NCBI GenBank assembly: GCA_026210745.1
Contig: CP110630.1
Location: 3,906,001-3,970,000 of the forward strand
From: Exobasidium rhododendri
Taxonomy: Eukaryota; Basidiomycota; Exobasidiomycetes; Exobasidiales; Exobasidiaceae
Direction of reading: 5' to 3'
Length of the DNA: 64,000 nt
The translations under genes and the position numbers were made by a program. Shown here piece after piece: positions 36,095 through 37,309 of the stretch (positions are counted from its first letter, which is position 1; the number at the start of each line of letters is the position of its first letter). The notes below the pieces were generated by a model, which was given only the letters and a program-made list of their open reading frames with translations, searched no databases and was not told where the DNA came from.

Positions 36095-37309
36095 TCAGCG
36101 ATAGAAGTCAGCTCTGAGACTTTGAACGCCATGCTCGCTTAGTGCAGCACTAAGATCATCCATGGTGAGCACAGTTCTCGATCGATCTTTCCCTGCAGAG
36201 TTGACATTTGCTGCAGCCACAGCTGCAGCTGTACTGTTCGAAGCTCCCGCCGATGCCTTGACCTTTGCACCAGTGGTTCGAATACGGGCATATTGGAAGG
36301 CGTCAGCAGCAATATCGGCCGCAAACTTCTCGGCGGCCAGAGAAAACAGTCGTTTGCTACGATGGGACAGTATCAGATTTCAGATCTCTCATGCAAATAG
36401 ATCCTTCGCACTTTCTCTCCCAGAGCGTCACTCACAGACGAGGATCTTCACACTCGAAACCGACCTTTTCCAAGTAATGATCGGTGACTTCGTCTGGGAT
36501 CAACGGCCTGTATCCATCAAGCATCCCGAGGAATTCGGCCAAACTTCGATCTTTTCTCTTTTCCTCTTCCTCCCTTCGACTGAGCGGTGGTTGCTCTGCT
36601 GGTTTTGACGTCGCATCAGGCATGTCAACATCTCGACTGGCACCGGTCGGCGTAGTGTTACCGTTACCGCCCGTTTCTTCTAATCCTCTTCTTTGTGCAT
36701 ACTTTGTGAGATCTTCTCTTGTCGCAACCGCAAGAACAAATGACCTAGAAGCATCAGTAACGAGTGCGAAGGGGTATGTGGTCAAGAAGGCTGGAAATTA
36801 AGAAGAAGATTTTCCCAGAAGGAATCTAGCTTAGTTCGAAGCTACAGCAACACCATCGAGCAGTCCCGGAGAGCAAAGGAAAACTTACCTTCAAGCTCGC
36901 CCAATCCTGTCTCGGGGCTGATCAGAGTGTACGTGGTCTTATCTTTGGCTTCTACGCTGTCTTTGCCTCCGAATTTGACCATATTCCCCATGACTCCTTC
37001 GTTCTTGTTTAGTTTGCCTGCTTCTAATTCTCCTCGCAGCTTTCTGATGTCCAGATATCCAAGCAGCTTTCTATTTCCATTCGAAGTAGACAGAACAGGC
37101 AGTTGCTCATAGTCGTGATCGAATGCGACTTGCAATGCGGAACCAATCGTAGCGGATGTAGGAATGCAAACAGCTGGTGACAGCTGCAGGTCCTCTACTG
37201 TTGCACCTCGGTATTTGAATGCCAAGCTGCTGGAAGCTGGCTGAGGCTGAGTCAATGGCAAAGATCTAGGAGGCGGTATAGGGCCCGATATCACTGAGCT
37301 GGAAGCCAT
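36095..37309 (-). CDS. TAF10: CBS-domain protein fused in frame to TFIID/SAGA subunit TAF10
   Basis: TAF10 is a histone-fold subunit of TFIID and SAGA. Three exons on the minus strand, 37309-36889, 36790-36436 and 36356-36095, join in phase to 345 residues. Residues about 20-180 form a CBS-pair protein (YRGATVEDLQLSPAVCIPTS, YEQLPVLSTSNGNRKLLGYL, then TYPFALVTDASRSFVLAVAT and EDLTKYAQRR). With no stop codon the frame continues through a short Thr/Pro/Glu-rich linker into TAF10 from about residue 220: LAEFLGMLDGYRPLIPDEV, YLEKVGFECEDPRLKRL, AAEKFAADIAADAFQYARIR, and a terminal TMDDLSAALSEHGV. In other fungi I expect these as separate proteins. Met197, with a purine at -3, could initiate a stand-alone TAF10, so one mRNA may give two products. 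Splice phases are unambiguous. Confidence 0.85.

Follow-up and report, generated by a model that had tools for sequence, protein, structure and literature searches.

The window analysed here is a stretch of 64,000 nucleotides from the fungus Exobasidium rhododendri, covering positions 3906001-3970000 of contig 1 (7,127,044 bases) in a 17.6 Mb assembly of four contigs. On its minus strand, from start codon to stop codon at 37309-36095, lies a gene of three exons and 345 codons without a stop, whose predicted product carries a pair of CBS domains on its N-terminal side (residues about 30-178) followed by a complete TAF10 (residues 224-344). TAF10 is the histone-fold partner of TAF8 and TAF3 in transcription factor IID (TFIID) and of SPT7 in the Spt-Ada-Gcn5 acetyltransferase complex (SAGA). 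The TAF10 is a known protein and the CBS pair a known module; what sets the gene apart is their combination. The gene almost certainly encodes one fused protein, judging from its conservation among relatives, and the best reading of that protein is a TFIID and SAGA subunit that would respond to an adenosyl ligand, possibly S-adenosylmethionine (SAM).

Results

A single open frame for the CBS pair and TAF10

Pfam recognised both halves of the 345-residue product. TAF10 (PF03540) matched residues 224-344 with 117.3 bits against a cut-off of 28 and covered profile positions 1-102 of 102, and CBS (PF00571) matched residues 38-94 with 25.0 bits, barely above its cut-off of 24. A preliminary description of this DNA had placed a CBS part and a complete TAF10 in one stop-free frame; its coordinates were confirmed, and full-length relatives showed the same arrangement. 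It had also stated that neither a stop nor a splice signal lies between the domains. The absence of a stop held, but a 72-nucleotide in-frame GT...AG pair is present at 36667-36596.

This pair coincides with the only difference between our model and the closest database protein, P0001 (CBS101457_001704 of E. rhododendri, 321 residues), which is identical except for a gap of 24 residues in the linker. The missing 72 nucleotides are stop-free and include Met197. Within them, TPT is kept in 9 of 11 aligned relatives and a D-x-[DE]-M motif in 10 of 11, and on this ground the stretch is more likely coding than an intron and the public record is probably 24 residues too short. With or without the stretch, the CBS and TAF10 parts share one open frame. 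The linker is 15-72 residues long among the fused proteins aligned, and its predicted local distance difference test score (pLDDT) fell below 50 at residues 181-194 and 199-208. Many fused proteins carry in this region (36600-36677, minus strand) the TPT motif together with an acidic patch, D-x-[DE]-M or DEPMP; these are possible phosphorylation or docking sites.

The AlphaFold model (mean pLDDT 74.6, predicted template modelling score 0.48) reached a pLDDT of about 90 across most of the CBS part and contained one CBS pair; its placement of the CBS half against the TAF10 half is uninformative. Matches in the fold search covered mainly residues 26-180, and the identity of the TAF10 half rests on Pfam and sequence. 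The five best PDB sequence matches of that half, a complete histone fold, were all TAF10 chains. The alignment begins 38, 67 and 113 residues into three of these five chains, and at residue 15 and, in a 102-residue fragment, residue 5 of the other two. The N-terminal stretches of these chains have no CBS match, and in the fusion the CBS pair fills that place; since three of the five chains have such a stretch, we infer that a module located there need not disturb the fold.

Conservation of the fusion in Ustilaginomycotina

A search of related genomes for the same fusion, as proposed in the preliminary description, found it across Ustilaginomycotina in three classes. We listed 139 distinct proteins, with the main search giving the best 120 of the 125 found. 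Both modules were present in 70 of the 139, while 54 had TAF10 only and 15 the CBS part only; 14 of these 15 span the part encoded by exon 1 and stop or diverge near intron 1 of the window, the remaining one being P0135. In six relatives a single-exon open reading frame (P0133, P0134, P0136-P0139) runs from the last stretch of the CBS module through the linker into TAF10 and stops at the same exon border as in the window. Among the matches listed, the fusion occurred by organism name in Exobasidiomycetes (Exobasidium, Meira, Tilletia, Tilletiaria, Ceraceosorus), Ustilaginomycetes (Mycosarcoma maydis, Ustilago, Sporisorium, Moesziomyces, Thecaphora, Testicularia, Violaceomyces and others) and Malasseziomycetes (Malassezia). 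Taxonomic placement was looked up for four fused species.

TAF10 without the module was found, among the same matches, in Microstroma, Sympodiomycopsis and Parajaminaea. The taxonomy look-up assigned the latter two to Microstromatales, class Exobasidiomycetes, and we take Microstroma to belong there as well. Named fungi that we presume to lie outside Ustilaginomycotina had TAF10 alone among these matches, which also include a few entries without an organism name. The economical reading of this distribution would be a single fusion in the ancestor of Ustilaginomycotina, which Microstromatales later lost or split. An annotation artefact or assembly error was ruled out, as genomes under many different names, and metagenome contigs too, contain the same fusion.

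Precomputed Pfam annotation contained both domains in 49 of the 64 fused entries of the main search. The CBS call was absent in the other 15 (e.g. P0012, P0045, P0048), where our own module profile found the module; as 10 fused proteins went into this profile, the count leans towards fusions. We aligned 51 of the 139 proteins with the window, including 14 Malassezia-like rows, 10 of which bear the Malassezia name and 4 of which do not. The modules of aligned fusions from other species, Malassezia excepted, were 49-77% identical to that of the window.

The two halves have diverged together. Distances in the CBS half and the TAF10 half correlated with r = 0.92 over 41 rows, and the trees of both halves set an identical group of 11 Malassezia-like rows apart from the remaining 30 (support 100 and 100). 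This test used 41 of the 52 rows, after dropping 6 unfused proteins, P0001 (same species) and the short or damaged P0038, P0052, P0054 and P0068. In the PF03540 search of the 17.6 Mb assembly, both exon matches belonged to the fusion locus, and no further TAF10 match was found. The conservation of the fusion, the conserved exon structure and the lack of another TAF10 match strongly support one fused protein. Since the only TAF10 found is the fusion, TFIID and SAGA, if they contain TAF10, should hold the fused protein; as the preliminary description had supposed, the two complexes of E. rhododendri should therefore carry a CBS module, unless it is cut off after translation. Three matches to Bromo_TP, the partner family, were found in the genome, one of them below the cut-off, and they would fit a set of TAF8, TAF3 and SPT7.

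The fused protein is present in databases, for example as UMAG_01529 of U. maydis (P0024), under names such as 'related to TAF10 - TFIID and SAGA subunit' (Sporisorium, Ustilago) or, elsewhere, 'CBS domain-containing protein'. The preliminary description knew of no described CBS-TAF10 protein. We likewise found the architecture undescribed in excerpts of the openly licensed PubMed Central (PMC) literature searched, and descriptions elsewhere are possible. The title of PMC5731698 reportedly concerns chloride channels. In the excerpts retrieved, PMC1282579 deals with TAF10 methylation by SET9 and, unconnected with it, with CBS domains, and neither the TAF10 passages of PMC2442719 nor those seen of PMC12844337 describe the fusion.

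Relationship of the CBS part to cystathionine beta-synthase

The best family match of the module was the C-terminus of TIGR01137 (positions 334-455), across both CBS motifs, in 10 of 10 members and in 5 of 5 Malassezia-like proteins. As a control, stretches taken from four further CBS proteins in this genome gave 0.026, 0.15, no match and no match against the same C-terminus; the second chloride-channel-like CBS locus (L011) was outside this control. The closest solved fold was the regulatory module of cystathionine beta-synthase (PDB 4uuu, 4pcu). These results make it very probable that the module is of the cystathionine beta-synthase type. At the positions aligned with the human SAM site, Q, T and D are identical and F is replaced by Y. 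The fusion differs from the enzyme in that it lacks the pyridoxal phosphate-dependent catalytic domain and has TAF10 as its partner, that human A446 is replaced by Leu or Ile, and that the site is largely decayed in Malassezia.

The preliminary description had proposed sensing of adenosine nucleotides or energy state. CBS motifs of the gamma subunit of AMP-activated protein kinase (AMPK; Snf4) do bind adenosine nucleotides, but that subunit has four CBS motifs and the fusion model one CBS pair. AMPK gamma chains gave a weak match to the module profile (E about 0.007-0.02) that covered a single motif, and an energy sensor of this type was ruled out as the closest kin. Given the module's kinship with cystathionine beta-synthase, an adenosyl compound, for example SAM, is a better-supported candidate ligand, and we put it in place of the energy-state proposal.

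The genome's own cystathionine beta-synthase is the product of a separate gene, identical (100%) to the public E. rhododendri model P0140; it has 371 residues and ends after the catalytic domain. Among its relatives (P0140-P0259, the best 120 of 7996), 10 carried the module, all fish by name, and the named basidiomycete enzymes (smuts, rusts, red yeasts, mushrooms) were without it. P0169 (nematode, partial) and P0258 (Peniophora) had longer tails without a module match, and P0176, P0177 and P0178 lack the end motif used for measuring tails. A missing C-terminal module is possibly a phylum-wide trait of basidiomycete enzymes, of which we found no statement in the excerpts of literature examined. 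No ascomycete or Tremellomycete name was seen among these best 120. No second copy turned up when the genome was searched with PF00571, TIGR01137 and the module as queries: the only cystathionine-beta-synthase-type module found in the genome sits on TAF10.

A jump of the module from the enzyme to TAF10 within Ustilaginomycotina was unsupported, as basidiomycete enzymes outside this group, among the best 120, are already without the module. The loss from the enzyme looks older than the fusion, and on the same evidence the module probably resided in a gene of its own before it became part of TAF10. Outside the fusion, one candidate for a free-standing relative was found, P0135 (220 residues, 30% identity). 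It is interrupted by stretches resembling unspliced introns and has no NCBIfam match; it may descend from the donor gene of the module.

Conservation of a putative adenosyl site

The regulatory module of human cystathionine beta-synthase binds SAM (PMC9232105, PMC10995199). F443, Q445, T535 and D538 are named in this binding (PMC9232105), and F443A and D538A abolish both the SAM response and SAM binding (PMC10995199). The four human residues align with Y67, Q69, T164 and D167 of the fusion, and Y, Q, T and D occupied these positions in 30 of 30 aligned non-Malassezia fusions, with the window and P0001 left uncounted.

The Malassezia-like rows kept Y67 and Q69 in 0 of 14 cases each, T164 in 8 of 14 and D167 in 14 of 14. 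The conserved positions do not identify the ligand, as other CBS proteins use T-x-x-D for AMP and ATP too. Cys4 of yeast, which carries the module, shows no SAM response (PMC9331509, PMC10995199). The pattern of conservation agrees with an adenosyl site that functions in the greater part of Ustilaginomycotina and would have been lost or changed in Malassezia, and we regard the case for adenosyl-ligand binding outside Malassezia as evenly poised.

Features of the locus

The features of the gene are collected in Table 1.

Table 1. Coordinates of the CBS-TAF10 gene and its parts in the window.
Feature	Position	Strand	Basis
CBS-TAF10 fusion gene, 345 codons, three exons	36095..37309	-	Exon joining; Pfam
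Exon 1: conserved N-terminal leader and CBS motif 1	36889..37309	-	Single-exon predictions of relatives match to the same place (GELE/DLE), then diverge or stop
Intron 1, 98 nucleotides, GTAAGT...TTCCAG	36791..36888	-	Exon joining
Exon 2: CBS motif 2, the linker and the TAF10 start, sharing an open frame	36436..36790	-	Single-exon open reading frames of relatives
Intron 2, 79 nucleotides, GTGAGT...TCGTAG	36357..36435	-	Exon joining
Exon 3: remainder of TAF10 histone fold, stop TGA	36095..36356	-	PF03540 exon matches
CBS pair (Bateman module), very probably of cystathionine beta-synthase type, residues about 30-178, split by intron 1	36678..37222	-	
Codon Tyr67, aligned with human F443 of the SAM site	37109..37111	-	Alignment, conservation; human contacts PMC9232105, PMC10995199
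Codon Gln69, aligned with human Q445	37103..37105	-	Alignment, conservation; PMC9232105
Codon Thr164, aligned with human T535	36720..36722	-	Alignment, conservation; PMC9232105
Codon Asp167, aligned with human D538	36711..36713	-	Alignment, conservation; PMC9232105, PMC10995199
Variable linker, low confidence, residues about 179-221	36549..36677	-	pLDDT; length variation
In-frame GT...AG stretch of 72 nucleotides absent from public model P0001, probably coding	36596..36667	-	Comparison with P0001 and relatives
Met197 codon, candidate internal start, judged unused	36621..36623	-	Linker alignment, upstream ATGs
TAF10 histone-fold domain, residues 224-344, split by intron 2	36101..36542	-	PF03540, 117.3 bits

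Ahead of the CBS module, the extreme N-terminus (37230-37309, minus strand) contains in many rows a short I-x-[GA]-P-like motif, which is kept from Exobasidium to the smuts and in several Malassezia. An ATG 263 nucleotides upstream of the fusion start opens a 93-codon frame (37291-37572, minus strand) that overlaps this start out of frame and, if transcribed, would be an overlapping upstream open reading frame. Farther upstream on the same strand is a frame of 1560 codons (37904-42586) with AMP-binding, carrier and NAD-binding domains, a layout that we take to be that of fungal alpha-aminoadipate reductase. A SNARE-like gene on the plus strand (35268-36014), with a weak PF05739 match below the cut-off, converges with the fusion gene, leaving 80 bases between the two stop codons, and a frame at 33142-33645 contains part of the PRP8 N-terminal domain.

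Discussion

Compared with the alternatives considered below, we slightly favour a fused protein with a ligand-responsive module. In the ancestor of Ustilaginomycotina, cystathionine beta-synthase was probably already without its regulatory module, and a gene for such a module would then have joined TAF10 in frame. The module may still bind an adenosyl compound, in the first place SAM and otherwise methylthioadenosine (MTA), AMP or ATP, in a cleft marked out by Tyr67, Gln69, Thr164 and Asp167. Binding would shift the packing of the module, alone or as a dimer, and this change would alter the assembly, recruitment or activity of TFIID or SAGA as the methyl-donor pool changes, with the outcome that TFIID or SAGA would be tuned to sulfur and methyl-donor supply. 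The proposal that ligand binding by the module regulates transcription is a tentative one, which we rate below an even chance. The most far-reaching form, in which a SAM-sensing module gone from the enzyme moved to TAF10 and every TFIID and SAGA directly senses the methyl donor (or MTA), we consider rather unlikely.

The main rival to sensing is dimerisation. Bateman modules associate in pairs and TFIID holds two TAF10 copies, and the module could be architectural, dimerising TAF10 and thereby bridging the lobes of TFIID or pairing SAGA complexes without any ligand signal. Its survival in Malassezia-like proteins, where two of the four ligand positions are gone in 14 of 14 and a third in 6, would agree with such a role, as would the joining of subunits by Bateman modules in bacterial and human cystathionine beta-synthase (PMC9232105, PMC10995199). 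Packing alone, however, would not obviously demand that all four ligand positions be fixed in the 30 non-Malassezia rows, and we hold a purely architectural role to be possible but on the whole unlikely.

It is improbable that a chance in-frame fusion left the module as a passenger, tolerated since the N-terminus of TAF10 is flexible. Microstromatales, in the same class, manage without the module, and the module evolves faster than TAF10. A passenger, however, should decay or vanish across three classes, whereas this module has kept its 49-77% identity outside Malassezia and remains recognisable within it. An action in trans on the truncated cystathionine beta-synthase, with the joining to TAF10 serving nuclear regulation or coupling, appears more improbable still. 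The enzyme is without a module, and the only copy found is on TAF10; against this, basidiomycete enzymes outside Ustilaginomycotina (best 120) also lack it in the presence of an unfused TAF10 in the species seen, and it is absent from most bacterial enzymes as well (PMC9331509).

Least probable of all are two products from one mRNA, through a separate TAF10 start at Met197, which the preliminary description had offered as its alternative, or through a dicistronic transcript: Met197 has a purine at -3, and 10 of 11 aligned relatives show a Met near this position in a D-x-[DE]-M motif, but 8 ATGs precede it inside the coding sequence, 5 of them out of frame, it sits in a variable linker that in all 14 aligned Malassezia-like rows has 15 residues and no Met, a Met at this place is variable elsewhere, and the public model without Met197 is still open, so that we ruled out both forms.

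If the ligand-responsive account were true in its full form, the fused TAF10 would be a general transcription factor gated by a metabolite, and its tuning might be shared with TAF3, TAF8 or SPT7 and with SAM-dependent histone methylation. TFIID and SAGA work at almost every promoter of RNA polymerase II, and we know of no core TFIID or SAGA subunit with a small-molecule-sensing domain. The fusion is kept across a subphylum, with the sensor module off the enzyme that usually bears it in animals and yeast, and this raises the question of whether general transcription may read SAM directly. The lineage offers a tractable model, Ustilago maydis, together with natural controls in the unfused TAF10 of Microstromatales and the decayed site of Malassezia.
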